This document shows, in pieces, positions 73-20,955 of a stretch of 22,554 nt of DNA; position 1 is the stretch's first letter; the number at the start of each line of letters is the position of its first letter. The translations under genes and the position numbers were made by a program. This DNA is from a virus. The notes under the pieces are model-generated. The model searched no databases. It was not told the origin of the DNA and saw only the letters and a program-made list of their open reading frames with translations. The DNA is taken from positions 1 to 22,554 of the IMG/VR virus record IMGVR_UViG_3300043172_000099. One strand, given 5' to 3'.

Positions 73-561
73 ATGGGACGTAGAGGACCACCACCCAAGC
101 CCACGGCGCTGAAGATCGCGGCGGGCAACCCCGGCCGGCGCCCCCTGAACAAATCCGAGCCGCAGCCGAAGCGTGGAAGCCCCGAGTGCCCCGATTGGTT
201 GGACGACGAGGCAAAGCGGCACTGGGAATATATCCTGCCGATCCTCGATTCCATGCGGGTTCTGACGGTGGCGGAGGGGGATGCGTTGGCGCAGTATTGC
301 CGGGCGTATTCTCGGTGGAAAGCGGCCGAGTCGTACCTGATGGAGCACGGCACGACGTACGAGGTTCTGGATAAAGACGGTTTGTTTCAGCGGGTTCAGG
401 CCCGGCCACAGATTGCGGAGGCCCGGTCGATGCTGGAGGTGATGCACCGGAAGCAACTGGAGTTTGGGTTGACGCCGGCGGCGCGTTCGCGGATCGCGGC
501 GGCGCCGGAACGGTCGGGTGATTCGAAGGGCAAGGCTCGGTTCTTCAAGAGAGGTGGATGA
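73..561 (+). CDS. terS: Terminase small subunit (P27 family)
   Basis: A 162-aa protein of the P27 type, which recognises phage DNA and hands it to the large subunit for packaging. The N-terminus, MGRRGPPPKPTALKI followed by a Gly/Pro/Arg-rich stretch (GNPGRRPLN), is the hallmark of this family. It is followed by an acidic helix (CPDWLDDEAKRHWEYI, about residues 40-55) and a helical core. The length is normal for the family. The ATG at 73 is preceded by a strong Shine-Dalgarno, AGGAGG, at 60-65. The gene directly precedes the large-terminase block, the usual order. Its last 30 or so bases, encoding the basic tail KARFFKRGG, recur at 696-730 (see the repeat entries). Confidence 0.9.
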   Translation: MGRRGPPPKPTALKIAAGNPGRRPLNKSEPQPKRGSPECPDWLDDEAKRHWEYILPILDSMRVLTVAEGDALAQYCRAYSRWKAAESYLMEHGTTYEVLDKDGLFQRVQARPQIAEARSMLEVMHRKQLEFGLTPAARSRIAAAPERSGDSKGKARFFKRGG

Positions 562-565
562 GATG
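531..565 (+). repeat. Direct repeat copy 1 (terminase small-subunit 3' end)
   Basis: A 35-base segment covering the last codons, stop, Shine-Dalgarno (GAGAGGTGG) and following ATG. It matches 696-730 at 33 of 35 positions, with differences at 546 (c versus t) and 563 (a position equivalent to 728) region base g versus t. Both copies deliver a ribosome binding site to a small gene immediately downstream. Confidence 0.9.
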
Positions 566-688
566 TTGTTGGCCTATGAGGTAACGTGGCGAATGCTGTT
601 GCCGTACTATGTCGGCGGTGCGGTCAGCGTCTGCGCCGGGATACTGCTGGCAAAGCTGTTCTGTTGGGCATGGGCAAAGAAATTGTGA
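563..688 (+). CDS. 41-aa single-pass membrane miniprotein
   Basis: A short ORF that begins one base after the small-terminase stop, behind the Shine-Dalgarno GAGAGGTGG. The 41-aa product has one hydrophobic segment at about residues 13-37 (YYVGGAVSVCAGILLAKLF and following) and ends in a basic tail, AWAKKL, the pattern of a single-pass membrane peptide. I do not recognise the family and assign no function. A small holin-like or moron role is possible but unsupported. The stop overlaps a 12-base segment identical to the start region of the large-terminase gene, so this gene may once have abutted a large-terminase gene directly. Confidence 0.6.
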   Translation: MLLAYEVTWRMLLPYYVGGAVSVCAGILLAKLFCWAWAKKL

Positions 689-698
689 TTAGCGACAA
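687..698 (+). repeat. 12-base copy of the large-terminase start region
   Basis: GATTAGCGACAA at 687-698 is identical to 920-931, where it encodes Ile-Ser-Asp-Lys at the start of the large terminase. At 696-698 it shares the bases CAA with the second copy of the small-terminase end, which starts at 696. The two borrowed segments therefore meet at a three-base microhomology. Confidence 0.75.
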
Positions 699-730
699 GG
701 CTCGGTTCTTTAAGAGAGGTGGATGATATG
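696..730 (+). repeat. Direct repeat copy 2 (vestigial terminase small-subunit end)
   Basis: A second copy of the 35-base terminal segment of the small terminase gene (33 of 35 bases identical to 531-565). It lies between the 41-aa and 65-aa miniprotein genes and supplies the Shine-Dalgarno for the latter. It has no coding role of its own here. Confidence 0.9.
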
Positions 731-925
731 CCAGACGGGATACTGGGACATTGTGAGACCTGCCGTTGGTGGGAACCGGCGCAGCGCGTCGATGCAACCT
801 TATCTGCCCAGGGTGTTTGCCGGAGATACCCGCCGAGCATCTTGTTAGGTCGCACCGATCCGCCGCATCCACCAGAAACGTGGGCGAATACCTATTGTGG
901 TGAATGGACCGTGGATGACGATTAG
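728..925 (+). CDS. Small Cys-rich (putative zinc-binding) phage protein
   Basis: A 65-aa protein with four cysteines, C9, C12, C31 and C57, in the pattern CxxCRWW ... VCRRYPP ... YCGEW. This arrangement, ending in an Asp-rich tail, is a recurrent small phage protein type. The paired cysteines suggest a metal-binding knuckle, but the function is unknown. I chose the ATG at 728 because GAGAGGTGG lies at 714-722. A GTG at 719 would extend it by three residues but lies inside that site. The 3' end overlaps the likely start of the large terminase by 11 bases, suggesting translational coupling. Confidence 0.75.
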   Translation: MPDGILGHCETCRWWEPAQRVDATLSAQGVCRRYPPSILLGRTDPPHPPETWANTYCGEWTVDDD

Positions 926-2540
926 CGACAAATGGCGAACCCGCTTCAAGCTGATCCCCGGTTACGATCCGGTGGCGTCGGCCGGCGAAGGCGAACGCTT
1001 CGACGAGCAGGCGGCGGACGACGCGATCGAGTTCGTCGAGACGTGCTGCCACCACGTCGAGGGCCGGTGGGCGGGGCAACTGCTACGGCTGGAGGAATGG
1101 CAGCGGGCGTTATTCGGTTGCCTGTTTGGGTGGAAGCGTGCGGACGGGAGCCGGCGGTATCGCGAAGCCCTGATCTTCTTGCCCCGGAAGAATAGCAAAA
1201 CCACGATGGGTTCTGCCATCGTTTGCGTCGTCGCGTACACCGACAACGAACCGGGGGCCAAGTTGTACAGCACCGCCGCCGAACGCGAACAGGCTCGCAT
1301 CTGTTTCGAGATCACGGCGGGCATGATTCGGCTTGAGCCTGACATGCTGAGCCGTGCCGAGATATTTAAGTACAGCGTCGTGTTCCACGGCGGGGCGGGA
1401 TCGTACAAGGCGTTGTCGGCGGAGGCGGGACACAAACACGGGCTGAACCCCCACCTCGTAATCAATGACGAGTTGCACGTCCACCCAACGAAAGACTTGA
1501 CTGTTGCGATGGGTTCGGGCATGGGTGCGCGGCGGCAACCGCTGCTGATCCATCTGACGACAAGCGACTTCGAGCGGCCGGGGTCAATCTGTAATGAGAT
1601 GCACGATTACGCCAGCAAGGTCCGCGATGGGATCATCGTTGATTCGTCGTTTCTGCCAATCATCTATGAAGCCAGCCGCGACGACGATTGGACCGACGCA
1701 GCTACGTGGTACAAGGCGAATCCAAACCTTGGCATATCGGTATCTCGCGACTTTATTGCCCGCAAATGTCAACGGGCGCAGGATACGCCAGCCGAAGAGA
1801 ACGAATTCAAGCGGCTGCACCTGAACATCCGCACCGAGCAGGCAGTGCGCTGGCTGCCGATGGAGAAGTGGGATGCCTGCGAGGTGGTTTGCGACGACGA
1901 AGAACTGCTCGGTAAACCGTGTATGGGCGGCCTCGACTTGGCGGCCACCAGTGATATCACGGCCCTCGTGCTTCTGTTCGATCTTGACAACGGCGTGCGT
2001 CGGCTGCTGTGCTTCTTCTGGGTGCCCGAGGCCCAGCTATTGAACCCGCGTAATCCGAATCGGGAGGCGTATCAAGAGTGGGCGAAGGCGGGCGTGCTGC
2101 GCACGACGCCGGAAGACATGATCGACTATGGCTTTGTGCGGCGCGACATAAACCAGATTGGCGAGCAGTACAAAATAATCGACCTCGCGATTGACCGGCT
2201 GTTCCAGGGGGCTCAGCTTGCGAACGAGTTGGACGAAAAGGATGGCTTCGAGGTGACGGGGTTCGGGCAAGGCTTCATGTCGATGGCCGCGCCGACGCTT
2301 GAGCTTGAAAGGCTGATCCTGTCGGGCAAGCTTGACCACGGCGGCAACCCGGTGCTTCGGTGGATGGCTGCGAACGTGGCAGTCAAGTATGACGAGGCGG
2401 GCAACATGAAGCCGAACAAGGCGAAGTCCAGCGGGAAGATCGACGGTATTGTGTGTGCGATCATGGCCCTGGGGCGGGCAATGGTACAAGAGGAACCGGG
2501 GGAAAGCATCTACGAGACGCAGGGGATTACGTTCGTATGA
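915..2540 (+). CDS. terL: Terminase large subunit (HK97-like, Terminase_1 type)
   Basis: The packaging motor: an ATPase that drives DNA into the prohead plus a nuclease that cuts the concatemer. Counting from the ATG at 915 (541 aa), a Walker A-like LPRKNSKT lies at about residues 89-96 and a Walker B LVINDE at about 181-186, followed by the LTTS coupling motif near 214. The C-terminal RNase H-like nuclease starts with GGLDLAATSD (acidic residues at about 341 and 347), with a further Asp in SGKIDG near residue 510. All key motifs are present, so the gene looks intact. In-frame GTG codons at 897 and 900 would add five or six residues but lie inside the upstream gene. The ATG is preferred, though no strong Shine-Dalgarno precedes it, so coupling to the upstream gene is likely. 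Confidence 0.93.
   Translation: MTISDKWRTRFKLIPGYDPVASAGEGERFDEQAADDAIEFVETCCHHVEGRWAGQLLRLEEWQRALFGCLFGWKRADGSRRYREALIFLPRKNSKTTMGSAIVCVVAYTDNEPGAKLYSTAAEREQARICFEITAGMIRLEPDMLSRAEIFKYSVVFHGGAGSYKALSAEAGHKHGLNPHLVINDELHVHPTKDLTVAMGSGMGARRQPLLIHLTTSDFERPGSICNEMHDYASKVRDGIIVDSSFLPIIYEASRDDDWTDAATWYKANPNLGISVSRDFIARKCQRAQDTPAEENEFKRLHLNIRTEQAVRWLPMEKWDACEVVCDDEELLGKPCMGGLDLAATSDITALVLLFDLDNGVRRLLCFFWVPEAQLLNPRNPNREAYQEWAKAGVLRTTPEDMIDYGFVRRDINQIGEQYKIIDLAIDRLFQGAQLANELDEKDGFEVTGFGQGFMSMAAPTLELERLILSGKLDHGGNPVLRWMAANVAVKYDEAGNMKPNKAKSSGKIDGIVCAIMALGRAMVQEEPGESIYETQGITFV
920..931 (+). repeat. Source copy of the 12-base terminase junction repeat
   Basis: GATTAGCGACAA, in frame as part of the second to sixth codons of the large terminase. 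It is identical to 687-698. In this copy it continues into the terminase reading frame, whereas in the other copy it continues into small-terminase sequence. Confidence 0.75.
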
Positions 2541-2701
2541 TACGCGACATTGCCCTTGACCTGTCCCTACTCTGCGGCGTTGCCGCGATTTCTTACGGGT
2601 TGTACTTGATTCATCTGTCGGTGGCGCTTATCTTTCTGGGGACAGCCCTCGCCGCTGGTGCGTTGTGGCTGGGTATGAGGCGTCGTCATGGGTCTGGTTA
2701 G
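2537..2701 (+). CDS. 54-aa two-helix membrane protein
   Basis: Starts with an ATGA overlap on the large-terminase stop and runs 14 bases into the portal gene. The 54-aa product has two hydrophobic segments, about residues 8-26 (SLLCGVAAISYGLYLI) and 29-46 (VALIFLGTALAAGALWLG), joined by a short turn, and ends in a basic RRRH cluster. Small proteins with a GLYLI-turn-hydrophobic hairpin are common between the terminase and portal genes of HK97-like phages. Their role is not settled. The topology would also fit a holin-like protein, but position alone does not support a lysis role. An in-frame upstream start at 2453 would lie wholly inside the terminase gene and is unlikely. Confidence 0.7.
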   Translation: MIRDIALDLSLLCGVAAISYGLYLIHLSVALIFLGTALAAGALWLGMRRRHGSG

Positions 2702-4346
2702 CGCCCTTGTAGAGCGTACATCGTCCCGTTCTTTCGAGAATCCCGCCACGAATCTGAGCGATCCGGCCGCCTGGCTTAGCGAGATGTTCGGCGGTGGCGA
2801 GTCAGATTCCGGCGTCAAGGTGAATCGGAAGACCGTTCTGGGACTACCGCCCTTACTGCGAGCCGTGACGCTGCTCAGCACCGACGTTGCCAAGCTGCCG
2901 CTCGTTGTCTACAGGCGATTACCTGAAGGCGGGAAGGAAAAGGCACCCGAACATCCCGCATATTATATCCTACGTCGGAAGGCTACGCCGGAGATAACGG
3001 CGTCCGTTTTCATACAGACGCTGATCGGCCATGCGTTGCTGAAGGGCGATGGGTATGCGTACATTCGGCGGCTTGGCAGCGGTGCGCCCCAAGAACTCTG
3101 GCCGCTGAATCCGGACGTGACGTTCCCCGTTCGCGAGAACGGCGTGCTCTGGTACACGACACAGATTGAGGGCAACCCGCATAAACTGCCGGCAGCGGAC
3201 GTGTTGCATGTTCATGGGTTGGGCTTCGATGGCCTAAGTGGATACCCGATAATCGAGATCGCGAAAGACGCAATCGGGCTGGGCCTGGGTATCCAGAAAT
3301 ACCGTTCCAAGTTCTTTGCGAACAACGCACGCCCCGGCATGGCGCTAGAGTTCCCGCAGACGCTCAGCGATAAAGCACGCGACAACATCGCGAAATCGTG
3401 GAAGACGATGTACGGCGGGCTTGACCAGCAGCACCGGACGGCAATCCTAGAAGAGGGCGTCAAGGTTCACCCGTTCACAACCAATGCGAAAGACGCACAG
3501 CTCGCGGAAGCTCTGCCGTTCACGGCACGCGACGTATCGAACATCACGGGCGTACCACCGCACAAGCTCGGCGACGATGTGCGTACCAGCTACGCCAGCT
3601 TAGAGCAGGAAAACCAAGCCTACCTGAACGAAGCTCTCGACGGCTGGCTCGTGGCATTCGAGGACGAATGCTGGGACAAGCTGTTGACCGAGGACGAGAA
3701 ACGGAACGATACGCACGTGGTCGAGTTCCTGCGCAACGCCCTCGTTCGGGCCGACCTAAAAACCCGCTTCGGTGCCTACCATTCTGCATTACAGGATGGG
3801 TGGATGAACCGCGACGAAGTACGCGATCGCGAGAACATGAACCCGCTCCCGGATGGGCAGGGTGAGGAATACTTGGTGCCACTGAACATGGCGCCGGCGG
3901 GCGGTGACGGGGATGACGACGGCGAGCCACAGCCGACGGATGAAGACAAAGACGACGAGCAGCCACGAGCCGTGACGCCGGCGCAGCGGGCGCTGCTGGC
4001 CGATGCCCTGGTGGGGATGGTGCGGCGGATTGCGAAGTCGGCACAACGTAACGCAAAGCGCGGCGGCGATGTGTACATGGCCTGGATTAACGACGGCCTA
4101 GATCGGCACGCGTCGGCGGTGATGGATGCGATAACGGGTCCGGTGCAGGTGATGCAGGAAAGTGGAGCGGCGTCGCCAGAGATGCTTGCGCGAGCGTGTG
4201 ACCTGTTTATGTCATGGACACGTCAGGAGCTACTCACGGTAGCGGAATGTGCCGAATCAGAACTAGTCAGGCGATTGGCAGCGGGGATGATGGCATTAGA
4301 ACTGCGCTCGGGCACGCTGCTCGATAAGATACTAGACGGAGATTGA
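2688..4346 (+). CDS. Portal protein (HK97 family)
   Basis: A 552-aa protein forming the dodecameric ring at the unique capsid vertex through which DNA enters and leaves. Typical portal features are visible: an N-terminal segment with LPPLLRAVTLLSTDVAKLPL (residues about 53-72), GDGYAYIRR, the LWPLNPD motif, the segment GFDGLSGYPIIEIAKDAIGL with its helix, and ARDVSNITGVPPHKLGD near residues 283-300. The core ends near residue 405. The last 150 residues hold a very acidic linker (about 410-430, rich in Asp, Glu and Pro) followed by a helical tail, longer than in compact family members. It overlaps the upstream membrane gene by 14 bases and is followed three bases later by the protease. Confidence 0.92.
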   Translation: MGLVSALVERTSSRSFENPATNLSDPAAWLSEMFGGGESDSGVKVNRKTVLGLPPLLRAVTLLSTDVAKLPLVVYRRLPEGGKEKAPEHPAYYILRRKATPEITASVFIQTLIGHALLKGDGYAYIRRLGSGAPQELWPLNPDVTFPVRENGVLWYTTQIEGNPHKLPAADVLHVHGLGFDGLSGYPIIEIAKDAIGLGLGIQKYRSKFFANNARPGMALEFPQTLSDKARDNIAKSWKTMYGGLDQQHRTAILEEGVKVHPFTTNAKDAQLAEALPFTARDVSNITGVPPHKLGDDVRTSYASLEQENQAYLNEALDGWLVAFEDECWDKLLTEDEKRNDTHVVEFLRNALVRADLKTRFGAYHSALQDGWMNRDEVRDRENMNPLPDGQGEEYLVPLNMAPAGGDGDDDGEPQPTDEDKDDEQPRAVTPAQRALLADALVGMVRRIAKSAQRNAKRGGDVYMAWINDGLDRHASAVMDAITGPVQVMQESGAASPEMLARACDLFMSWTRQELLTVAECAESELVRRLAAGMMALELRSGTLLDKILDGD

Positions 4347-4349
4347 CCG

Positions 4350-5078
4350 ATGCCGAACAAGACCGATACGCCACAAATGGAGCGTCGCTACACACCGCAG
4401 GTTGTCGCGGTGGAGTCGCGGGCCGACGATCAGCCGAGCCAGATCGCGGGCTATGCGGCCGTGTACTATGACGGGACGCCGGAGACCGAGTTCGTGCTGT
4501 GGGAGGGTGCCGTCGAGCGGATCATGCCAGGGGCATTCGATCGGGCGATCCGCGAGGATGACGTGCGTGGATTGTTCAACCATGATCCGAACCAGGTCCT
4601 CGGCCGAACCGCAGCCAATACGCTGACGCTATCGAGCGATGCGACCGGGCTCCGATATGTGGACGACGTGCCGGACACGGGCGTGGGGCGCGACGTGTCA
4701 GCGAGCATCGAACGCGGCGACGTAACCGGTTCCAGCTTTTCGTTCACGATTACGGACGTTGAATGGCGAGTCGAAGATGAGATAGAGATCCGCGAGATTC
4801 GGGGCGTACGGGTCTACGATGTTGGGCCGGTGACGTTCGCGGCCTATGAAGCGACAAGCGCCGGAATTCGCGCCTTGCAGGTGCTTGACGTGACCCACAT
4901 GGGGACCGTTGGTCGCGCATACACGCTAGGTGAAGATCCGCTTGATGGCGTGCGCAGCGAACGGGCTGAATTGCTCAAGGCGGATTGGGCCGGCGCCGAG
5001 AGTGACCGGCGTGAACTGGCTCGCATCGCCCGCAGAAATCGTGCCCGCATTGTCGAATTGGGGTTGACACGCCCATAA
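4350..5078 (+). CDS. Prohead maturation protease (HK97 type)
   Basis: A 242-aa serine protease that cleaves the scaffolding domain of the capsid protein during head maturation. The fold's signature runs IAGYAAVY, then PGAFDRAI, then GLFNHDPNQVLGRT carrying the catalytic His (H78), then the active-site Ser in VTGSSFSF (S128 or S129). The third catalytic residue is probably one of the acidic residues around 150-158, which I cannot fix by eye. Its position between portal and capsid genes is canonical. The last 60 residues are charged and helical, rich in Arg and Glu, and may be a scaffold-like tail. The ATG at 4350 follows the portal stop by three bases. Confidence 0.9.
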   Translation: MPNKTDTPQMERRYTPQVVAVESRADDQPSQIAGYAAVYYDGTPETEFVLWEGAVERIMPGAFDRAIREDDVRGLFNHDPNQVLGRTAANTLTLSSDATGLRYVDDVPDTGVGRDVSASIERGDVTGSSFSFTITDVEWRVEDEIEIREIRGVRVYDVGPVTFAAYEATSAGIRALQVLDVTHMGTVGRAYTLGEDPLDGVRSERAELLKADWAGAESDRRELARIARRNRARIVELGLTRP

Positions 5079-5253
5079 GTGGGTGCCATAGTTCTATCGG
5101 ATAGCATCCCCACGCCGCTCAGACGGCATGGGTAGCAGGTCTGAATCGCTGCTCAGACGGCGGAAGCCCTGTAAGCGAGATTGGTTTGTACTCGCTGACG
5201 GGTTCCCACCGTTTCCATTTCGGTCGTTCCCGCCAGCCCATGAGGATTGAGAC
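5079..5253 (+). promoter_or_regulatory. Structured leader of the major capsid gene
   Basis: This 175-base gap is the longest non-coding stretch in the window. GCTCAGACGGC occurs twice (5117-5127 and 5151-5161), and each copy can form a small stem around an identical CTCAGA loop (gccg or gctg with cggc). A third hairpin, AGCGAG at 5174-5179 with CTCGCT at 5191-5196, follows. An unlisted ORF of 40 codons at 5128-5250 (ATG, no Shine-Dalgarno) ends four bases before the capsid start with a Phe/Pro-rich C-terminus. The region may be a 5' leader or processing site boosting capsid expression, or may hold a tiny gene. The capsid Shine-Dalgarno, GAGGA, lies at 5242-5246. Confidence 0.4.
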
Positions 5254-6579
5254 ATGGACCTAAAGGAACTGCGCGAGAAACGCGCTAAGGCCGCAGCCGC
5301 AATTGCGGAACTCCAGAAGATCAATGCCGACGCCGAGCACGAATGGTCGGCGGAAGACGAGCAACGCTGGACGGGGGCCAACGGCGATTATGACAAGCTG
5401 ACGGGCGAGATCGAGCAGGCCGAGCGCAGCGAACGGGCTACCGAGATTCAGCGTGAGCAGACTGAACCCGTCGCCCCGCCGATCAGCCGCGACACGATTC
5501 CGCCCGAACGGGAGACGGCGACGCAGAGTCGGACCGTCACCGAGGAAGACCGCTCGCTTGCGTTACAGGCGTGGGCGCGTGTCGGCCAGGGCGAGGACAT
5601 CGAGGACCGACACCGGGAAGCGGCCGAGCTGTGCAACATCAATCTCCGGGCCCGGAATCTCACCATACCACTGAGCCGCAACTTTGCATCGCAGGCGCGG
5701 GAGTCCCGGGCGCTAAGCGCGACTATCCCCAGTGCGGGTGCCGCCACCATCCCTGAGGGATTCGTTCCCCGGCTTGAGCGGGCGCTGCTGACATTCGGCG
5801 GCATGATGACCGTTTCAGAGATCATCACCACGACCGCCGGCGAAGACTTGCCGTGGCCGACCACGGACGATACCAGCAATGCCGGTGAGCAGATCGGCGA
5901 GAACCAGGAAGTCAACGAACAAGACGTGACGTTCGGCGCGATGGTATTGCAGGCGTACCAGTGGTCGTCGAAGATGGTCAAGGTGCCGTTCGTCTTGCTA
6001 CAAGATTCAGCCTTCAACCTTGCGAACCTGCTCGGCGACATGCTGGGTGAGCGGCTCGCCCGCATCCTGAACACGCGCTTCACTACGGGCACGGGTGCCG
6101 GTACGGCTTACGGCATCATCCCGGCGTCCACGCTTGGTAAGACGACCGACGTGGCCGCTGCGATCGACTGGAGCGAGATCACCGACCTGATTCACTCCGT
6201 CGATCCGAGTTACCGAATGGGTGCGGGGTTCATGTTTCACGACAACATCGCGCTCTACATTCGGAAGCTCGTTGATGGTGAAGGTCGGTCGCTGTGGTTG
6301 GCCGATCCGAACGGCGTAGCACCCGCCACACTGCAAGGGTATCCGTATACCATCAACCAGGACATGGCTTCGACGGACCCGCCGACCACGGCGACGAAAA
6401 CGATGCTATTCGGCCAACTCTCGAAGTACAAGATTCGGATGGTCGGCAGCATTCGTTTGAAGCGGCTCGAAGAGCGGTATGCGGAATTCGATCAGATCGC
6501 GTTCTTGGCGTACATGCGGGCCGATGGCGCCCTACTCGACGCGGGAACGAACCCGGTTAAGCACATGCTCCAAACGTAA
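5254..6579 (+). CDS. Major capsid protein (HK97 fold)
   Basis: A 441-aa capsid subunit. Residues 1-70 are a charged, coiled-coil-like delta domain (LKELREKRAKAAAAIAELQ), which serves as built-in scaffold in this family and is removed by the protease. A disordered Pro/Glu-rich stretch follows (about 70-100). The HK97 core begins near residue 155 with ALSATIPSAGAATIPEGFVP, the N-arm and strand region, then FGGMMTVSEI, the extended E-loop (about 195-230) and the spine helix (QDSAFNLANLLGDMLGERLA). The cleavage site must lie before the core, but I cannot place it exactly. The C-terminus, ending VKHMLQT after the FLAYMRADGALLD P-domain strand, is complete. The neighbours agree with this call. Confidence 0.93.
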   Translation: MDLKELREKRAKAAAAIAELQKINADAEHEWSAEDEQRWTGANGDYDKLTGEIEQAERSERATEIQREQTEPVAPPISRDTIPPERETATQSRTVTEEDRSLALQAWARVGQGEDIEDRHREAAELCNINLRARNLTIPLSRNFASQARESRALSATIPSAGAATIPEGFVPRLERALLTFGGMMTVSEIITTTAGEDLPWPTTDDTSNAGEQIGENQEVNEQDVTFGAMVLQAYQWSSKMVKVPFVLLQDSAFNLANLLGDMLGERLARILNTRFTTGTGAGTAYGIIPASTLGKTTDVAAAIDWSEITDLIHSVDPSYRMGAGFMFHDNIALYIRKLVDGEGRSLWLADPNGVAPATLQGYPYTINQDMASTDPPTTATKTMLFGQLSKYKIRMVGSIRLKRLEERYAEFDQIAFLAYMRADGALLDAGTNPVKHMLQT

Positions 6580-6590
6580 GGAGAATCACA

Positions 6591-7025
6591 ATGGCTAGTC
6601 TTTTCCACGAGCGGCATCTCGTAACCAAGGTCGCGGACGTGTCCGGGGCGGGAAGCGGTGATGTAACCACCGACGGCGTTGACATGGCGGGCTATCAGGG
6701 TTGCTACTTCATTAGCTCATACGGTACTGCTGCATCAAACAACCTGCCGTACCTGCAAGGATCGAACGACGACGGCAGCGGCGATTCGTACGAAGATCTG
6801 GAGGGTACCGAAGTCGGCGTGGGCAGCAGCGACGAGGATGTGTGGGCGGAGATTCACACGCCAGTTGAGCAGTGGGTGCGAGCGGTCTACGAGCGTGGCA
6901 CCTCAAGCACGCTCGGTGACATCTGGTGCATCCGCTACGGCGCGCGCAGCATCCCTCAGGACAACACGACCACCGGGACGATTTACGGCGAGGCGCACAT
7001 CTCGCCCGCCGAGGGCACGAAGTAG
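6591..7025 (+). CDS. Putative capsid decoration or minor head protein
   Basis: A 144-aa protein 11 bases after the capsid stop, with a strong AAGGAG Shine-Dalgarno. The layout (N-terminal ERHLVTKVADVSG, a GYQGCYFISSYGT strand, an acidic loop, VEQWVRAVYERGTSS, IWCIRYGARSIPQ and a C-terminal HISPAEGTK) matches a type of small structural protein often found directly after HK97-type capsid genes. Expression linked to the capsid gene suggests a high copy number, consistent with a decoration or cement protein. That role is inferred from position, and I see no motif proving it. Confidence 0.6.
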   Translation: MASLFHERHLVTKVADVSGAGSGDVTTDGVDMAGYQGCYFISSYGTAASNNLPYLQGSNDDGSGDSYEDLEGTEVGVGSSDEDVWAEIHTPVEQWVRAVYERGTSSTLGDIWCIRYGARSIPQDNTTTGTIYGEAHISPAEGTK

Positions 7026-7107: not shown

Positions 7108-9639
7108 ATGCCACAATATCAGCCGAAGGTTTATCGGGAACGGGGCGGCGACAAGCAGGTCGTTGCGAGCGGCGGTACATACGCGATTGAATCAGGCGGC
7201 ACGCTTGCTATCGAATCCGGCGCGACGTGGACGCTGGGGGGCACCGCAGTAACCGCGACCGCTGCTGAACTCAACAACATCAGCACGCAAGAGGCATTCA
7301 CGGCCGATACCGGCGGCGTGTCTCAGTATGATATCGTGCACGTCAGCGGCCACGACGCAGGCAATAACCGCGTTAAGATGGACAAGGCGCAAGCCGACGT
7401 AGCCGCCACGTGCGAGGATTTGTACTGGGTCGATGCCGCAGTCTCGGCCGGTGCGGCTGGTAACGCATTGAAGCAAGGCTACTTCACTTCCGCGCTCAGC
7501 GGGACCGCTGGCGACAAGGTGTATCTGTCCGACAGTGCTGCTGGTGGCGTAACGCTCGTCGAGCCGACCGGGACGGACATTGTTCGTATCGTCGGTTCGT
7601 TGGCGACAACCGGCGCCAGCGGTGTTGTGCATGTCGATCTGGGTGGCGAATCCATCCAGGTCCACGATCATGCGGACGACGCGGGCGGCGGCACGCTGTC
7701 CAGCGTCGGCGGGTTGACGGGCACCACGCATACGTCATTCGAGATTGACACGGACGGCAGTATTCCGGCCTTGTCGCTCGGCGTAGGTACGACGGGCGAT
7801 TATACGCTGAACATCAAACCGGCCGCGACGTTGACGGGCAACGTGGACGTGACTATCCCCGATGGCGCCGATACGTTCTGCATGATCGCGGCGGCGCAGA
7901 TCCTCACGAACAAGACGCTGACCACGCCGACCATCGGTGACATGACGAATGCGACGCACGACCACAGCAACACGGCGGGCGGCGGGACGATTACGGCCTC
8001 GACGGCCTCGACCGGCACCAGCAACTCTACGTACGAGATCAACACGACTGGCAACGGAGCGACGCTGGACAGCACCGGGCTTAGCCAGGATTCGACGTTT
8101 ACGTTTCCCGACGAGGCTGGGCCGGATGAGATCGTTACGCTGACCGGGACGCAAGCACTTACTAACAAGACCATCACGAACGGCACATTGGACGGCATCG
8201 TCGGCGGCGGCACGCCGCGGGATGGTTCGTTCAGTACGCTCAGTACGTCCGGGGCTGCAACGCTGGCTTCTCTTGTCTGTACTGCGGCCGGGACGTTCGG
8301 TGGTGGATATGGCGCAACCGGCGTTACGATCAGCACTGCGGGTGTGATTCAAGCGAACGACGCGATTACAACGGACAGTACACTGACCGCAGATGATATC
8401 GTTTGCACGGCCGGGGCTACGTTCGGTGGCGGCTACGGATCGACGGGCGCAACGATCAGCACGGCTGGCGTTGTTCAGGCCAACGGTGCGATTACCACGG
8501 ATGGTGCATTGACTGCCGACAGCGCCGCGATCGGCGGCGGGTACGGAGCGACAGGCGCCAGCATCTCGAATGCGGGTGTCGGCCAGTTCAATGGAGCCCT
8601 AACGACCGATGGCGCATTGACCACCGACAACATCGTATGCACCAACGCGGCAACCTTCGGCGGTGGGTATGGCACTACGGGCGCCACCATCAGTACCGCT
8701 GGCGTCGGTCAGTTCAATGGCGCCCTCACGACGGATGGGGCGTTCACCTGCGCGACCATCGCGGTTGCGGATGCGACCACGCCGACGATTGCCCTGGCTA
8801 CCGGGAAGACGAACACCGGAACCTTCACGATCAACGGCAAGACTTCGGGCTCGCTGATAATCACCACTGCCGACGCAACGGCTCAGGCGATTACACTGGC
8901 CGTCGCTGCCCAGACGGCGGGCGCCGCGACGTTGAGTATTCCCGACATGGCGAATACCAGCGCGAATATCGTCATGTCCGCTGGCACAAATGCGCTAGGC
9001 GGGACTGATACGCACACGGGCAACCTGGATATCAGCGGGGCAACCGTGGTGTATCGGTCTATCGTCAACGCCGACGTCAGCGCGTCTGCCGCGATCGTCC
9101 GAAGCAAGTTGGCCCAGGATGCCCTTGCGAAGTACACCGTGCCCTGGAACGCCATCAAGAAAAATGACATGCTAACGCCGCTGCCCGCTGCTGGCGACAG
9201 CACTAATCTCGGCCTTGTCGCGGGCACGCATGGCACTGGCTCGCCGATGCTGGCGGGCGCCGGGGCGAACACCGACACCAAAACCGAAACGGCGCGTTTC
9301 ACGTTTGCGTTGCCCGCCGAGTATGACGCGGGCGAAACCGTTACGCTTCGGCTGCACGCGAGAGTTGACGCTGTGGCTAACACGTCCGCGACTGTTGACG
9401 TGGAATGTCGCGAGTCTGATACCGAGGCCAGTATCGGAGCTGAGATTTGCGCCACGGTCGCGCAGTCGATCAACTCGACGAGCTGGGCGGATCAAGACTT
9501 TACCATCACGCCGACCGCCCTGGTTGCTGGTGACATCCTCGACGTAGAGTTGACGACGATTGTTAATGACACCGGCGGCAGTGGCACCTGCAAGGCCAAC
9601 ATCGGGCTGGTTCAGTTCCTTCTGGATATCCGGGGATAA
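7108..9639 (+). CDS. Repetitive fibre protein, probably a capsid fibre
   Basis: An 843-aa protein rich in Gly, Thr, Ala and Ser. The N-terminus (VYRERGGDKQVVASGGTYAI, then SGGTLAIESGATW and TAVTATAAELNNIST) is a beta-rich opening known from phage fibres. Two diverged units follow (starting at residues 186 and 284), each with HDH, AGGGT, an EI-D/N-T strand and LTNKT. Next come four GGGYG-headed repeats (residues 398-550). The C-terminal third has NADVSASAAIVRSKLAQDALAKY, then a probable beta-sandwich ending VQFLLDIRG. Fibre genes usually follow the tape measure. This one sits between capsid and connector genes, which favours a fibre on the head surface. A tail-fibre role is not excluded. Confidence 0.7.
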   Translation: MPQYQPKVYRERGGDKQVVASGGTYAIESGGTLAIESGATWTLGGTAVTATAAELNNISTQEAFTADTGGVSQYDIVHVSGHDAGNNRVKMDKAQADVAATCEDLYWVDAAVSAGAAGNALKQGYFTSALSGTAGDKVYLSDSAAGGVTLVEPTGTDIVRIVGSLATTGASGVVHVDLGGESIQVHDHADDAGGGTLSSVGGLTGTTHTSFEIDTDGSIPALSLGVGTTGDYTLNIKPAATLTGNVDVTIPDGADTFCMIAAAQILTNKTLTTPTIGDMTNATHDHSNTAGGGTITASTASTGTSNSTYEINTTGNGATLDSTGLSQDSTFTFPDEAGPDEIVTLTGTQALTNKTITNGTLDGIVGGGTPRDGSFSTLSTSGAATLASLVCTAAGTFGGGYGATGVTISTAGVIQANDAITTDSTLTADDIVCTAGATFGGGYGSTGATISTAGVVQANGAITTDGALTADSAAIGGGYGATGASISNAGVGQFNGALTTDGALTTDNIVCTNAATFGGGYGTTGATISTAGVGQFNGALTTDGAFTCATIAVADATTPTIALATGKTNTGTFTINGKTSGSLIITTADATAQAITLAVAAQTAGAATLSIPDMANTSANIVMSAGTNALGGTDTHTGNLDISGATVVYRSIVNADVSASAAIVRSKLAQDALAKYTVPWNAIKKNDMLTPLPAAGDSTNLGLVAGTHGTGSPMLAGAGANTDTKTETARFTFALPAEYDAGETVTLRLHARVDAVANTSATVDVECRESDTEASIGAEICATVAQSINSTSWADQDFTITPTALVAGDILDVELTTIVNDTGGSGTCKANIGLVQFLLDIRG
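7663..8210 (+). repeat. Two diverged ~95-residue units in the fibre gene
   Basis: Unit A starts at 7663 and unit B at 7957. Each opens with His-Asp-His and AGGGT, continues with a Thr/Ser-rich strand and an F/YEI-D/N-T motif, then a PD-containing strand, and ends with LTNKT and a Thr-rich tail (at 7903 and 8158). DNA identity is low, so the duplication is old or shape-driven. Confidence 0.55.
8299..8757 (+). repeat. Four tandem GGGYG-headed repeats in the fibre gene
   Basis: Copies start at 8299, 8425, 8533 and 8659 with spacings of 126, 108 and 126 bases. The consensus protein unit reads GGGYGATGATISTAG, then V-QANGAITTDGALTADDI, then VCTAGATF. Copy 2 lacks six codons of the linker. The DNA is clearly similar between copies, so recent expansion or gene conversion is likely, and the copy number may vary between relatives. 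Confidence 0.85.
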
Positions 9640-9648
9640 CGAGGTTTC

Positions 9649-9885
9649 ATGCCTGAGACAATGGACAAGGTTCAGCCGGTCGTGCGGCTTATTGTTGACT
9701 TGATGCCCGATGGTAGCTGGCGACTGACCAGCAATCCCAGCAGCGAGCTGTGGCAATTCACGGCGATGGGGATACTACGCAAGGTGCTGACGCACCTTGA
9801 GGAACCCGCCGTGGTGAGCACGACGGCCGTATGCGACGGCGATGCCGAAGCGAAGGAGGCCAGCGATGGCGTTCCCGAGAGTTGA
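9649..9885 (+). CDS. Hypothetical 78-aa protein
   Basis: A small acidic protein directly after the fibre gene, with GAGG at 9641-9644 upstream of the ATG. The N-terminal half has alternating hydrophobic residues (VRLIVDLMPDGSWRL), which suggests a short beta hairpin. The middle is a likely helix (FTAMGILRKVLTHLEE), and the C-terminal 20 residues are acidic and probably disordered. I do not recognise a family. Its end overlaps the next gene by 20 bases, and the overlap holds that gene's ribosome binding site. It is probably translated because it lies in the same tightly packed head gene array. Confidence 0.55.
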   Translation: MPETMDKVQPVVRLIVDLMPDGSWRLTSNPSSELWQFTAMGILRKVLTHLEEPAVVSTTAVCDGDAEAKEASDGVPES

Positions 9886-10219
9886 AACCGTTACAGTGAT
9901 AACGGACGGCAGCGGTGCCGCGACCGAATATACGTCGCGGATTCGCGGGCACCTGATGCACATACGCTACACGAAAACTGACTTCGCCAATGGCTCGACG
10001 TTTCTGATTACTGGTGAGACGACCAAGCAAATTATATGGTCAGAATCATCGGTGAACGCCACGGCGGAACGCTCGCCGACCTATGCGGCACATACGGTAA
10101 CAGGTGGCGCGGTAACGAATGGCTACGTGCTGCTCACGTTGCCGAACGAACGCATCAAGATTTCGATTACGTCGGGCGGCTCTACGCACACTGGCACGTT
10201 TCGTTTCATTTGGGAATAG
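9866..10219 (+). CDS. Small beta-sandwich-like accessory virion protein
   Basis: A 117-aa protein, counted from the ATG at 9866 because AAGGAGG lies at 9853-9859. A start at 9842 would put the Shine-Dalgarno inside the gene. The order of strands, TVTVITDGSGAATEY, an IRGHLMHIRYTKTDF strand, FLITGETTKQIIW, a central loop and a closing ERIKISITSGGSTHTGTF motif, resembles a small beta-sandwich protein type that recurs in uncultured phage genomes. It often sits near fibre or connector genes. The protein at 20158-20613 may be a distant relative. The role is unknown and could be a capsid or fibre accessory. There are no membrane segments or signal peptide. Confidence 0.6.
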   Translation: MAFPRVETVTVITDGSGAATEYTSRIRGHLMHIRYTKTDFANGSTFLITGETTKQIIWSESSVNATAERSPTYAAHTVTGGAVTNGYVLLTLPNERIKISITSGGSTHTGTFRFIWE

Positions 10220-10221
10220 CC

Positions 10222-10419
10222 ATGCGACACGAGCCGAGGATTCGGGTGGCGGTGAGTATCGAGATCGTGGTGACAATGCCGGAAACGATGGCCGATATGC
10301 TAGTGGAGAAGGGCGTCGTTCGTTACGTCTGCGACAATCGCCGCCCGTGGGGCACGATTGAAACACAGATGGTGTCTCCGACCGAGCGGCGCATGGGACA
10401 CAAGCCTCATGGAAATTGA
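10222..10419 (+). CDS. Small conserved-type protein before the head-tail connector
   Basis: A 65-aa ORF filling the space between the beta-sandwich gene and the connector. It starts two bases after the previous stop and overlaps the connector start by 11 bases. An N-terminal basic strand (RIRVAVSIEIVVTMPETMADMLVEKG) is followed by VVRYVCDN and a Thr/Met-rich tail with ETQMVSPTERR. Short proteins with a strand, a helix ending in EKG, then a conserved ETxMV-P-E tail frequently precede gp6-like connectors in HK97-type phages. Their function is not known to me. No strong Shine-Dalgarno is present, so coupling to the upstream gene is likely. Confidence 0.55.
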   Translation: MRHEPRIRVAVSIEIVVTMPETMADMLVEKGVVRYVCDNRRPWGTIETQMVSPTERRMGHKPHGN

Positions 10420-11026
10420 CTGGACAACCACGCTAGGCACCGCACCGACGATCGAGCCGGTAACGGTAGACGACGTGAAGCGTCGCGGCCGTATCAGCGG
10501 CACTGATCTAAATGCCGATGTTAAGCAGAATATCACAGCAGCCCGGCTAATGGTGGAGCACGACACCGGCCGGCAGCTCATCACGGCAACCTGGAAGTTG
10601 TACCTGGATCGGTTCCCAGTGGGTGGTGGCGTGATTCGTATGCCGTACCCGCCGCTGCAGTCCGTAACCACGATCAAGTATTACGACGGCGATGGGGTTC
10701 AGCAGACCTGGACGGCCAGCGAGTACCGCGTAGACAAGGACAGCGAGCCAGCCCGAATCACGGAGGCGTACGGCCATACGTGGCCGGCAACACGCGACAT
10801 GACCGGTGCCGTCGAAGTCGAATACCTCTGTGGTTATGGCACTGCGGGCTCAAACGTGCCACGCACGCTACGGCAGGCTATCGAGGTGGTTTGTACTCAT
10901 TGGATCGAATTCCCCGAGCTAACCATCACCGGCACAACCCAGAGCCCGGTAGCGTTGGCTTACGAATCGCTGGTCAGGATGGAACGTGTGTTTCGGTACG
11001 ATGGCCCCACGGACCCCACGCATTAG
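10409..11026 (+). CDS. Head-tail connector (gp6-like adaptor)
   Basis: A 205-aa protein that binds under the portal and extends the DNA channel. It shows the family pattern: an N-terminal VTVDDVKRRGRI helix, VKQNITAARLMVEHDTGRQLI with the conserved E-TGR core, TWKLYLDRFP, IRMPYPPLQSVTTIKYYD, an EYRVDKDSEPARI strand, a VEVEYLCGYG motif and a C-terminal helix (PRTLRQAIEVVCTHWIE). The ATG at 10409 gives the canonical start. An upstream ATG at 10358 would add 17 residues with no family resemblance. Adaptors are often about 100 aa, so this is a long-form member. It lies upstream of closure and terminator genes, the standard order. Confidence 0.85.
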   Translation: MEIDWTTTLGTAPTIEPVTVDDVKRRGRISGTDLNADVKQNITAARLMVEHDTGRQLITATWKLYLDRFPVGGGVIRMPYPPLQSVTTIKYYDGDGVQQTWTASEYRVDKDSEPARITEAYGHTWPATRDMTGAVEVEYLCGYGTAGSNVPRTLRQAIEVVCTHWIEFPELTITGTTQSPVALAYESLVRMERVFRYDGPTDPTH

Positions 11027-11033
11027 GTGAGAC

Positions 11034-11438
11034 ATGAGCAATGAAGTGGAAACGCAGGTAGCCCCGAAGCCGGGACGTACTCGCGTTATTATCCCGGAAG
11101 AGACGGCGCTGTTGCTACCCGATGCCTTGGCATCAGAGCTTATCAGCCTGGACGTTGCAACGCTGGAATCCGAAACCGAGTTGGCGGAACGTGGAACGCT
11201 CGAAAGTCTCGGGCAAGAACTACTGCAAGCCACCCGGCGATTCGTCCGGTCTTTGCGCGAACATGATGCGAGTATAGCCGCCGCCGGGGAGGACATATTG
11301 GCGGCGGCCCAGCAAAGGGCAGACGCTATCGTCGAGGCGGCACACGCCGAGGCCGCGCGATGTATCGACGCGGCGATTGTAGAGGCGGGGCAGATCGCCA
11401 AAAATAAACTGGAAAGCGAGGTAAGTGACGATGGCTGA
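11034..11438 (+). CDS. Helical, coiled-coil-like hypothetical protein
   Basis: A 134-aa acidic protein of unknown function. Residues 1-30 carry a Pro-rich start and a short strand (TRVIIPEETALLLPD). From about residue 45 to the end it is one long Ala/Glu-rich amphipathic helix (QELLQATRRFVRSLRE, then DILAAAQQRADAIVEAAHAEAARC), which would form a coiled coil. There is one cysteine and no signal peptide. The gene follows the connector after seven bases and overlaps the next gene by eight. It could be a scaffold-like or accessory head protein, but I see nothing diagnostic. Confidence 0.5.
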   Translation: MSNEVETQVAPKPGRTRVIIPEETALLLPDALASELISLDVATLESETELAERGTLESLGQELLQATRRFVRSLREHDASIAAAGEDILAAAQQRADAIVEAAHAEAARCIDAAIVEAGQIAKNKLESEVSDDG

Positions 11439-11961
11439 TACAATCAGCGCGGCCTTTAGTATAGCGCTCCGAGTGACGCATACTATTGATGTGGACGTGA
11501 CGGGCGTGACGGGCGAGGTCGCAACGCACTTTACACAGATCGACGCAGATCCAAGCTTCGACGAGATTATTACTGGCACCTCGGGCACGCTGAATGCAGG
11601 TACGACGCCAGCAGCCACAAAGACGTGGAGCGGAGCATTTGCGCTTTCGGGCGGAGCAAAAACCCACGACTTTGCAGACCTGCGCAGCTATAGCGCAACG
11701 GAGGTGGACGCGAGCGGCCTCGAAGTCATCCTGTTCAAGTTCATAAACAACGGCACGAATACGATGACCATTGTCGACGGTGCGTCTAACGGCTATCCCA
11801 TCCTCGGCGATACAAGCGGCTCGATTACGATTGCGGCCGGCGGTAGTTTCGAGTTCTATACCGCAGATGGCATTGCCCAGGTCGTGGACGGCACACATAA
11901 AACAATTGACATCTCGGGAACTGGGGTTGAAGAGTATGCCATCCAGATAGTGTTTGGTTAA
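11431..11961 (+). CDS. Beta-rich putative structural protein
   Basis: A 176-aa Thr/Gly/Ala-rich protein with alternating short strands and no membrane segments. The stretch LEVILFKFINNGTNTMTIVDGASNGYPILGDTSG followed by a Gly-rich strand and a FEFYTADGIAQVVDGTHKTIDISGTG tail resembles small beta-sandwich virion proteins seen near head-completion genes of uncultured phages. The ATG at 11431 was chosen because GAGG precedes it by ten bases. A GTG at 11425 is possible. It overlaps the upstream coiled-coil gene by eight bases. It shares the first 15 bases of its start with the gene at 16093, which may be chance. The role could be head decoration or a minor tail component. Confidence 0.55.
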   Translation: MADTISAAFSIALRVTHTIDVDVTGVTGEVATHFTQIDADPSFDEIITGTSGTLNAGTTPAATKTWSGAFALSGGAKTHDFADLRSYSATEVDASGLEVILFKFINNGTNTMTIVDGASNGYPILGDTSGSITIAAGGSFEFYTADGIAQVVDGTHKTIDISGTGVEEYAIQIVFG

Positions 11962-11963
11962 TC

Positions 11964-12293
11964 ATGCGTGCGGGAACCTTGCGACATCGGGTCAAGATTC
12001 AAAAGAACAACGGTACGGCCGGCGACTACGGCGAACAGTCGGACAACTGGCAGACCGTGGCCGAGCCGGACGGTGTGGTGTGGGCTTCGGTGTCGCCGCT
12101 GTCTGGACGCGAGCTGTTGCTCGCTCAGCAGGTGAACGCCGAAGCGACGATCAGGGTAAGTATGCGATACTGGAAAGGCTTGACAACCGATCACCACATT
12201 CTACACGGCACCCGCGAATTAGCGATTGTCAGTATCGTTGACCGCGACGACCGTCACCGCGACCTTGAGCTGATGTGTCGGGAGGCGGTGTGA
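11964..12293 (+). CDS. Head closure / head-tail joining protein
   Basis: A 109-aa protein that seals the filled head and provides the docking surface for the tail. It has the clear start of the family, MRAGTLRHRVKIQ, then the DNWQTVAEPDGVVWASVSPLSGRELLLAQQV motif, MRYWKGLTTDHHILH and the C-terminal strand pair around ELAIVSIVDRDDRHRDLELMCREAV. Length and order of elements match SPP1 gp16/HK97-type stoppers. It begins three bases after the preceding stop without a clear Shine-Dalgarno, so its translation is probably coupled. Its own stop overlaps the next start as TGATG. Confidence 0.88.
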   Translation: MRAGTLRHRVKIQKNNGTAGDYGEQSDNWQTVAEPDGVVWASVSPLSGRELLLAQQVNAEATIRVSMRYWKGLTTDHHILHGTRELAIVSIVDRDDRHRDLELMCREAV

Positions 12294-12862
12294 TGGATAC
12301 GTTAGGCGCCGAGATCAAAGGCATCAAGGCCCTAGAGGTAGCGTTGCAGACCATCGGGCCGCGTGCGTGGCAGAACAGCATCAAGCGGGCATTGCGGGCG
12401 GGTGCGAAGCCGATCAGTAAGTCAATGAAGGCGGGCGCGCCAGTGGACACGGGAGCACTTAAGAAATCCATCGCGACGAAGATCAGTGCCAAGACGTTTA
12501 TCGCTGGCAAGAATCGAGGCGCACGCGGGGCAACCGGACGACAGTACACGGCCTATGCTGCTATTGGGCCACGTTCGGACTTCGTGCAATTCGCGGCCGG
12601 CGACAAGACCGGTCGCGCATCCGGCAAGGTTGCACGAAGTCTTGTCAAGGCGAAGGTGCAAGGGCTAAACCGGCCAGTGCGTTACGCACACCTCGTAGAG
12701 TTTGGCTTCCAGGCGGGAAGCCGCGAGGTGAAAGGGCGTGGCTTCATGCGCCGTGCGTGGGATGCGAACAAGGATCGATCATCGCGGATCATGCGTCGCG
12801 TCTTGTGGAAGGCGTTAGCGGAAGAGGGGCGCAAGGCGGCACTGCGCAAGGTGGCGAGTTAA
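12293..12862 (+). CDS. HK97 gp10-like tail component
   Basis: A 189-aa protein of the gp10-like type found between head closure and tail terminator genes. It starts at the overlapping TGATG and has GGAGG at 12281-12285. Features: an N-terminal helix (GIKALEVALQTIG), a basic segment with WQNSIKRALRAGAKPISKSMKAGAPVDTGALKKSI, the PVDTG-LKKS motif typical of this family, a variable loop, and the C-terminal YAHLVEFGFQ...GRGFMRRAWD signature. The last 30 residues are strongly basic. It joins head and tail during assembly. The length is slightly above the usual 130-160. Confidence 0.85.
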   Translation: MDTLGAEIKGIKALEVALQTIGPRAWQNSIKRALRAGAKPISKSMKAGAPVDTGALKKSIATKISAKTFIAGKNRGARGATGRQYTAYAAIGPRSDFVQFAAGDKTGRASGKVARSLVKAKVQGLNRPVRYAHLVEFGFQAGSREVKGRGFMRRAWDANKDRSSRIMRRVLWKALAEEGRKAALRKVAS

Positions 12863-13281
12863 TGGCAGACGTGAAAACAGCTTTGGTTGCCTTGCTCGCC
12901 GGTGACGGTGGCGTGTCTGCGATAGTCGGTACGCGTGTACGGATCGATACTGCGTGGGCCAAAGACGAGTTGCCGTACATCGTAATGCACGACATCGGTG
13001 GTGCGGTCGGCTATCACATGGGCGGCGAGGACGGCCTCGACGACATACGAATACAGATAGAGAGCTGGGCCAGTACGCGGGGCGGGGCCGAGGCACTGAA
13101 GCGGGCCGTACGTTCGGTGGTGTCGGGCTATCGGGGAACGGCTGGGCCGAGCGGTGCTCAGACCTTCATCAGCAACATCATCGTAGACAACGGACCCGAC
13201 GCCCGCGAAATCTATCCAGCGGGCTCGGACGACTGGCGATATGGCGCGCTAATTGACGCCATCGTGTGGCATCAAGCCTAA
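12862..13281 (+). CDS. Tail terminator / completion protein (DUF3168-like)
   Basis: A 139-aa protein whose start overlaps the previous stop as TAATG. The pattern VKTALVALLAGDGGVSAIVGTRV, then DELPYIVMHDIGG, a RIQIESWAST strand-helix and ALKRAVRSVVSGYRG matches the DUF3168 fold, which caps the tail tube and ends its growth. Its position between the gp10-like and tail tube genes is canonical. The C-terminal part, DWRYGALIDAIVWHQA, completes the beta sheet. An in-frame start at 12757 would lie wholly within the upstream gene and is rejected. Confidence 0.82.
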   Translation: MADVKTALVALLAGDGGVSAIVGTRVRIDTAWAKDELPYIVMHDIGGAVGYHMGGEDGLDDIRIQIESWASTRGGAEALKRAVRSVVSGYRGTAGPSGAQTFISNIIVDNGPDAREIYPAGSDDWRYGALIDAIVWHQA

Positions 13282-13297
13282 ACGGTAGGAGACTGAT

Positions 13298-13741
13298 ATG
13301 GCTGCCGATGTAGGAACTGGCGTAGTGATTTCGTCTGTCTTGGGTATAAACGGCACGTTCGCCGCAGATGTTCTCGCCGTAAGCGGTAGCGGCATCTCGC
13401 GGCCGTCCGTCGATACAAGCCACATGGGCACGACTGGCGGGCGGACCTTCATGCCGGGCGACCTGTACGACACGGGCACCACGGAAGTTGAATTCGCCAT
13501 CGATGCGGATGCGGGATTTGCCACGACACGCATACCCGGCTATAGCGCCGCATTCGACCCAGCCAGTACAACGAAGATCAAGATCCAGTTCCCGACGCCC
13601 GTCGGTGGCAGCAGTGGTGGATCCTTCGAGTGCCTCGGCTTCGTTACAGATCTTTCGTGGGGTGCGGTTATTGAAGAACGCATGACCGGCACCTTTACTA
13701 TTAAGTGGTCCGGCACGCCAACGTGGGCGCCCGGTAGCTAA
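13298..13741 (+). CDS. Tail tube protein
   Basis: A 147-aa beta-rich protein in the tail-tube position, before the assembly chaperones and tape measure. The sequence shows SVLGINGTFAADVLAVSGSGISRPSVDTSHMGTTGGRTFMP, an early strand and loop typical of tube proteins, then EVEFAIDADAG, a KIKIQFPTP strand, FECLGFVTDLSWGAVIEERMTGTFTIKWSGTP closing strands and a short tail. Tube proteins stack as hexameric rings around the tape measure. The GGAG-containing Shine-Dalgarno (TAGGAG at 13287-13292) precedes the ATG. Strong single-copy expression is expected, consistent with its separate spacing from the neighbours. Confidence 0.82.
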   Translation: MAADVGTGVVISSVLGINGTFAADVLAVSGSGISRPSVDTSHMGTTGGRTFMPGDLYDTGTTEVEFAIDADAGFATTRIPGYSAAFDPASTTKIKIQFPTPVGGSSGGSFECLGFVTDLSWGAVIEERMTGTFTIKWSGTPTWAPGS

Positions 13742-13752
13742 CTGGAGGTTTT

Positions 13753-14157
13753 ATGTCTTTGCGGGACCAGATTCTCGCCGCTGATGATCGGCCGTTTGTG
13801 AAGGAAGATGTGCCCGAATGGAAGTGCATCGTCTATGTACACACCATGACGGGCAGGGATCGCGACGCTTTCGAGATCGGGCTGGTTACGCAGCCGGCGA
13901 AGCGTGGGCAAAAGGGACAGATGGTTCGCGACAACATGCGTGCCCGGCTGCTGGTCAAGTGCCTGCGCGACGAGAATAGTGAACTGATCTTCAATGGCGA
14001 CCCGGCGGACATCGTGGCCCTGGGCGACAAGTCCGGAAACGTGCTTGGCCGCCTATTCGAGGTCGCACGCAAGCTCAACGGCTTGTCCGATGAAGATGTT
14101 GAGGAGCTGGAAAAAAACTTAGAGGGCGCCCCGAGCGAAGATTCTGGCACTTCCTAG
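13753..14157 (+). CDS. Tail assembly chaperone, short form (gpG-like)
   Basis: A 134-aa chaperone that, together with its frameshifted longer form, keeps the tape measure soluble and guides tube assembly. The protein opens with SLRDQILAADDRPFVKEDVPEW, followed by a KCIVYVHTMTGRDRDAFEIG domain, RLLVKCLRDEN, a helix LGRLFEVARKLNGLSDEDVEELEKN and an acidic tail with its own stop. The end of the helix is encoded by the slippery heptamer at 14112-14118. TGGAGG lies at 13743-13748. The short form is made by normal termination at 14155-14157. Confidence 0.88.
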   Translation: MSLRDQILAADDRPFVKEDVPEWKCIVYVHTMTGRDRDAFEIGLVTQPAKRGQKGQMVRDNMRARLLVKCLRDENSELIFNGDPADIVALGDKSGNVLGRLFEVARKLNGLSDEDVEELEKNLEGAPSEDSGTS

Positions 14158-14186
14158 CGCGGACGGTGTTGCACTGCTCGGTGCGC
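14112..14186 (+). promoter_or_regulatory. Programmed -1 ribosomal frameshift signal
   Basis: The heptamer A AAA AAC at 14112-14118 is in the correct frame (codons GAA AAA AAC) for tandem -1 slippage. After a seven-base spacer, 14126-14136 pairs with 14176-14186: GCGC with GCGC and CCGAGC with GCTCGG, with one mismatch (14130/14182), a 10-bp stem around a 39-base loop. The loop could fold further. Slippage fuses the short chaperone to the next reading frame. Confidence 0.85.
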
Positions 14187-14489
14187 GAGGCGCAGGAACG
14201 CATAGATAGCCGGGAGTTCGCGGAATGGATCGCCGAATACTCACTCGAGCCTTGGGGGGAAGTGCGAACAGACCTGATGATTGCGCAGCTCTGTGCCATC
14301 ATGGTCAACGCTTGGCGGGGCAAGCAAACGAAGGCTGTGAAGGCGATCGACTTCATGCCGCGCTTCGACCCGCGGGAGTCCAACAAGCTAACGACGGCCG
14401 CACAGATAGCCGTGTTCTTCCAGTCAATGGTGCAGGCCAAGCGGGGAGGGGATAAGCCATCGCCACCAGCATCGGAAAGCTCGCAGTAA
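14118..14489 (+). CDS. Tail assembly chaperone, frameshift extension (gpT-like)
   Basis: The -1 frame downstream of the slippery site is open for 123 codons and has no independent ribosome binding site. Fused to the first 122 residues of the short form it gives about 245 aa. The segment starts LRGRPERRFWHFLARTVLHCSV and contains the widely seen SREFAEWIAEYSLEPWGEVRTDLMIAQLCAIMVN pattern of the second chaperone domain, ending with an FMPRFDPRE motif and a Pro/Ser-rich tail. A GTG at 14166 is the only plausible start within the frame, but it would remove the FWHFLART helix. The tape-measure gene overlaps its 3' end. Confidence 0.88.
   Translation, partial: LRGRPERRFWHFLARTVLHCSVREAQERIDSREFAEWIAEYSLEPWGEVRTDLMIAQLCAIMVNAWRGKQTKAVKAIDFMPRFDPRESNKLTTAAQIAVFFQSMVQAKRGGDKPSPPASESSQ
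14445..14461 (+). promoter_or_regulatory. Shine-Dalgarno and possible ATC start of the tape measure
   Basis: GGAGG at 14445-14449, within a longer purine run, is followed nine bases later by ATC (14459-14461). This codon is in frame with the tape measure, and the next residues (ATSIGKLAVILSANATKFN) look like the normal start of such proteins. No ATG, GTG or TTG occurs in frame before 14525. Upstream, a TAA at 14453-14455 closes the frame. Confidence 0.5.
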
Positions 14490-20613: not shown

Positions 20614-20625
20614 AGGAGTAATATC

Positions 20626-20946: not shown

Positions 20947-20955
20947 GGGCCTGCA

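Follow-up and report, generated by a model that had tools for sequence, protein, structure and literature searches.

The terS–terL boundary and its repeats

Most mosaic junctions in phage genomes bear no trace of their formation. The locus described here raises the question how two small genes, X and Y, came to lie side by side between the genes for the small and the large terminase subunit (terS and terL), with pieces of both terminase genes between them. The window, i.e., the whole stretch of DNA that was analysed, is a complete IMG/VR record of 22,554 bases and comprises the portion of a tailed phage genome that is concerned with packaging, head and tail. The features of the locus are listed in Table 1; X, Y and the start of terL are as described in an earlier, sequence-only reading.

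Table 1. Features of the terS–terL boundary, in window positions
Feature	Position	Strand	Evidence
terS, terminase small subunit, 162 aa	73..561	+	Pfam Terminase_4 1.5e-21; phrog_83 3.1e-39
35-nt repeat copy 1 (terS end, stop, ribosome-binding site, ATG of X)	531..565	+	
Gene X, 41 aa, single hydrophobic segment	563..688	+	annotated frame best-scoring of three
12-nt repeat copy 1, terL-start vestige after X	687..698	+	
CAA, crossover point common to terL-start and terS-end vestiges	696..698	+	
35-nt repeat copy 2, terS-end vestige, provides ribosome-binding site of Y	696..730	+	33/35
Gene Y, 65 aa, four-cysteine mini-protein	728..925	+	phrog_15838 3.4e-6; conserved Cys
terL, terminase large subunit, 541 aa	915..2540	+	TerL_nuclease 3.7e-38; TerL_ATPase 8.3e-20
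12-nt repeat copy 2, terL codons 2-6	920..931	+	

The second copy of the terS end is exactly as the sequence-only reading had it, with mismatches to the first at C546/T711 and G562/T727. The former is a synonymous TTC/TTT difference in terS and the latter is non-coding, behind the stop codon, as expected if copy 2 diverged while coding in another genome. The sequence GTGGATGA is present three times (554–561, 719–726 and 911–918), and the terL ATG at 915 overlaps the stop of Y. The two copies of the 12-mer, GATTAGCGACAA, are identical at all 12 nt and are the only ones in the 22,554 nt, where shuffled sequences lead to an expectation of 0.00; any exact 12-mer repeat occurs in 0.9% of random 400-nt sequences. 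This repeat had been taken for the start region of terL. It begins with the last base of codon 2 and ends in codon 6, at the second base; the ATG itself is thus not included. The meeting of the two borrowed ends at CAA is confirmed. The view that this shared triplet was the whole of the homology needs extension, as both terS copies have GTGATT close to CAA on its 5′ side (518–523 and 685–690), with a spacing that differs by 2 nt; the homology between the partners, though interrupted, therefore exceeded 3 nt.

One could suppose that a local duplication of the terS end and its ribosome-binding site arose to serve Y, which the 35-nt copy indeed provides with such a site, and that the 12-mer is coincidental. 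This is very unlikely, given that the first half of the repeat is useless for translation of Y and that the 12-mer exactly adjoins the 35-nt copy and sits exactly at a terL start. The nine bases 5′ of CAA are matched in only 0.015% (approximately 1 in 7,000) of random terL starts, i.e., 45-nt sequences of the same dinucleotide make-up.

The direct 35-nt repeats that flank X would also fit a mobile cassette, consisting of X and a terS end, that entered the terS end site-specifically and, like an integrating element, re-formed that end. Such an origin is highly improbable: there is no recombinase in or beside the 165-nt unit, the terL-start vestige is left unexplained, and no second repeat of this kind was found in the scanned parts of the window or in the slots of relatives. 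The scan of the window (2541–7000 and 9650–22554) revealed no comparable direct repeat, and the other cargo slots of relatives contain single 10-mers only, not the same double duplication. The repetitive ORF at 7108–9639, which was excluded from the scan, encodes 843 aa with repeated segments and is probably a fibre-type structural protein. An Rfam search of the terS–terL slot gave no match to an RNA element.

Unequal exchange as the probable origin of the junction

Both kinds of repeat can be collapsed in silico. Deletion of 531–695, between the 35-nt copies, takes out X without altering the amino acids of TerS (...SKGKARFFKRGG), after which Y and terL follow. Deletion of 687–919, between the 12-nt copies, removes Y; X is then followed by GTGATTAGCGACAAATGG in the terL frame, and terL begins with GTG ATT AGC GAC AAA TGG, its GTG overlapping the stop of X. 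The GTG start that had been proposed for terL in an X-type ancestor thus reads in frame. Both products are compact and complete, the outcome predicted for two fused parental junctions and not for an unrelated duplication. The locus consists of two complete junctions, terS–X–terL and terS–Y–terL, fused at a microhomology.

The fusion of a terL start to a terS end at 687–730 is best explained as a recombination scar left by an unequal, microhomology-guided exchange, to which we assign a probability of about 0.72. The repeats lie in the order that such an exchange predicts. Two genomes of one phage lineage, one with terS–X–terL and the other with terS–Y–terL, would have undergone a single unequal recombination guided by microhomology, or a template switch during replication. 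A strand that had passed X and entered the initial codons of terL would have mis-paired with the terS end of the partner, with which it shared GTGATT...CAA, and would have switched at CAA to continue through the partner's terS end, Y and terL. As the outer ends are complete, neither terminase gene would have been broken, and a ribosome-binding site derived from terS would have remained with each cargo gene. If so, GATTAGCGACAAGGCTCGG should not be the end of a functional gene in relatives. The repeats, their positions and the complete, compact junction that results from either deletion are shown directly, and the two parents, the direction of the exchange and the enzyme are inferred.

Recombination between two phages, as the sequence-only reading proposed, accordingly has the scar in its favor, while its single-cargo parents were not met among the relatives. 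Among these, which have at most 55% identity in TerS and 53% in TerL, none has a slot occupied by only X or only Y, so that the parents are deduced from the junction.

Cargo stacking by mis-aligned exchange is known in principle, and the present case is unusually legible. At the X/Y junction, the exchange can be followed at both ends with single-base precision, which makes it a clear natural example of small cargo being stacked between essential genes that remain unbroken. It has the form of a mosaic junction at a short shared boundary, as the 35-nt and 12-nt repeats lie at gene boundaries and meet at CAA. The closest published case found is that of Island3 and Brujita, Cluster I mycobacteriophages in which the insertion of gene 68 is accompanied by a duplicated gene end of approximately 60 bp, explained by recombination between repeats or with an unknown partner genome (PMC3029335). 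The two cases share an extra small gene beside the duplicated 3′ end of its neighbor. In the window, however, the start of a second gene, terL, is duplicated as well, so that both crossover ends are readable, and the site is the terS–terL boundary.

Source of the sequence and host

The junction is covered by one assembly only. A sibling record, G001 (40,007 bases), matches at 100% identity across the 11.7 kb compared, but it ends inside terL at window position 2347 and the junction is therefore beyond its reach. With a single assembly at the junction and no second contig covering it, a laboratory chimera has to be considered, in which the slots of two strain variants became joined during multiple-displacement amplification or assembly. 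We regard this as quite unlikely, since the shared words at which assemblers make joins are much longer than the three bases present here and since every reading frame and ribosome-binding site is intact.

Among genomes, the nearest relatives of TerL are found in assemblies of Phycisphaerae and other Planctomycetota, which makes a Planctomycetota host likely. In viral contigs, TerL identity reaches up to 53%, and the closest relative of TerS is that of L233 (55% identical).

Genes X and Y and their relatives

Neither X nor Y has a match in Pfam or NCBIfam. A homing endonuclease inserted between terS and terL was considered and rejected, as these searches showed no HNH or other nuclease match for either gene. 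For X, no homologue was detected by profile or tblastn searches, and its sequence suggests, as a guess, a small membrane protein. Y matches phrog_15838 (E 3.4e-6), which has no known function. It is a member of a family of four-cysteine mini-proteins that occurs in phages and, within the class to which the Phycisphaerae assembly G006 belongs, in 17 of 397 genomes. Y and its relatives have in common four cysteines and a CRRYPP motif, and Cys 9, 12, 31 and 57 are invariant in nine relatives. Y is probably zinc-binding, although this too is a guess. Its predicted structure is of low confidence (pLDDT 55), and a comparison with solved structures yielded no match. Our guess for both genes is that they are most likely dispensable cargo acting on the host.

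Relatives of Y occur near terminase genes of different kinds. In L254 (2989–4852) and L258 (666–2502), one is located immediately 5′ of the gene for a TerL from a different family, Terminase_6N. In L152 (236–2999), the order is an N6/N4 methyltransferase gene, a Y relative with an overlapping 43-aa membrane ORF, a 59-aa cysteine-rich ORF, an HNH endonuclease gene, terS and terL. In L158 and L289, terL is preceded by a membrane ORF together with a Y-like ORF (profile E 0.04 in a search of all frames of all loci), terS not being on the contig. Within 500 nt of Y, 3/3 clade members have a small membrane ORF versus 0/15 others, against a background of 0.11; this is a lead only, as the window prompted the comparison and two cases are left without it.

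In L152 and L158, a Y-type gene is thus close to a small membrane-protein gene while the scar is absent, so X and Y may have travelled together. This weakens the earlier claim that X and Y were alternative cargo. It also makes it plausible that a Y–X pair once occupied the slot of one parent, in which case a tandem duplication joined at CAA would have been followed by loss of the first Y and the last X. The arrangements agree with this, the Y relative standing directly before the membrane ORF in L152 and both kinds of gene standing before terL in L158. We nevertheless find this course of events unlikely, because it needs a duplication and two clean deletions, and 531–925 shows no leftover of another X or Y.

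A more speculative and unlikely reading is that X and Y form a functional pair, a small membrane protein and a four-cysteine protein that the phages of this clade have beside their terminase genes, and that the locus is a toggle. If this were true, recombination at the 35-nt copies would cleanly remove X and recombination at the 12-nt copies would cleanly remove Y, in both cases with intact terminase genes.

The terS–terL boundary as a cargo slot

Most relatives have a terS that overlaps terL or almost adjoins it (L055, L056, L057, L145, L146, L150, L152, L173 and many more), and this direct, cargo-free abutment is the usual state. Clade members have an RFF-type TerS tail in common (GKARFF in L058, L060 and L146), so that the 35-nt repeat represents a conserved TerS end. 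Neither the exact DNA pattern of the window's terS end nor a degenerate, peptide-level form of it had a match in viral contigs other than the window itself. X or Y lies between terS and terL in no relative that has both genes on the contig. The sequence-only reading had proposed a search of related phages for slots with X only or Y only; what their junctions offered instead were cargo-free slots and slots with other cargo.

A tree built from 75 TerL proteins places the window within a clade of 23 rows (support 97/93). All six loci scored as carrying cargo belong to this clade, and the other 52 rows hold none. Among scorable rows this amounts to 6/17 within the clade versus 0/44 outside (Fisher p 2e-4, a guide only, as the rows are related), and well-supported TerL branches force at least three changes in cargo. 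Moreover, L148 and L288, with TerL proteins 83% identical, differ by an 806-nt island that is present in L148 only. The suggestion that the intergenic terminase slot may be a hot spot is supported for the window's TerL clade, in which the boundary repeatedly takes up cargo. It appears as a slot filled time and again within a single clade of phages from the environment, many of which have a link to Planctomycetota.

The cargo itself is diverse. The slot of L148 contains several small ORFs; at the end of its island, just before terL (1810–1870), a hairpin followed by a T run looks terminator-like by eye. L062 and L161 have a protein of unknown kind, a relative of which (62% identical) is found among further ORFs in L164. 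ParB_N and Mom (DNA modification) genes lie between terS and terL in L172 (462–2025), and a tRNA-Asn (GTT) directly behind terS in L144 (555–629). Two further loci add to the six cargo loci of the tree: L303, whose slot encodes a ParB/methyltransferase protein as well as a DUF1937 protein, and L299 (755–1836), with two adjacent paralogues of 183 and 168 aa just before terL that resemble the slot protein of L161 and L164 by eye. Outside the tree, cargo is also present in L176 and L215 (methyltransferase).

An optional cargo position at this boundary is also found in lactococcal 936-type phages, in which genes for an HNH protein or a methyltransferase separate those of the two terminase subunits (PMC6105707). 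Their cargo is an endonuclease or a methyltransferase, whereas the window has two tiny unrelated genes joined by a scar. Like morons, defined as insertions of DNA that separate genes adjacent in other phages (PMC3029335), X and Y lie between genes that adjoin in most relatives. Y differs from its neighbors in codon composition (GC3 0.57, compared to 0.77 for terS and terL), and X is at 0.73. Unlike morons, X and Y have no promoter-like or terminator-like site (0 and 0 in 400–1100, using the sigma-70 consensus only) and are read as part of the operon.

Within terL itself, insertions of approximately 1 kb near TerL residue 96, in the ATPase region, were observed in L230, L231 and L034. In L230 and L231, the insertion lies in one open frame of approximately 910 aa and is intein-like.
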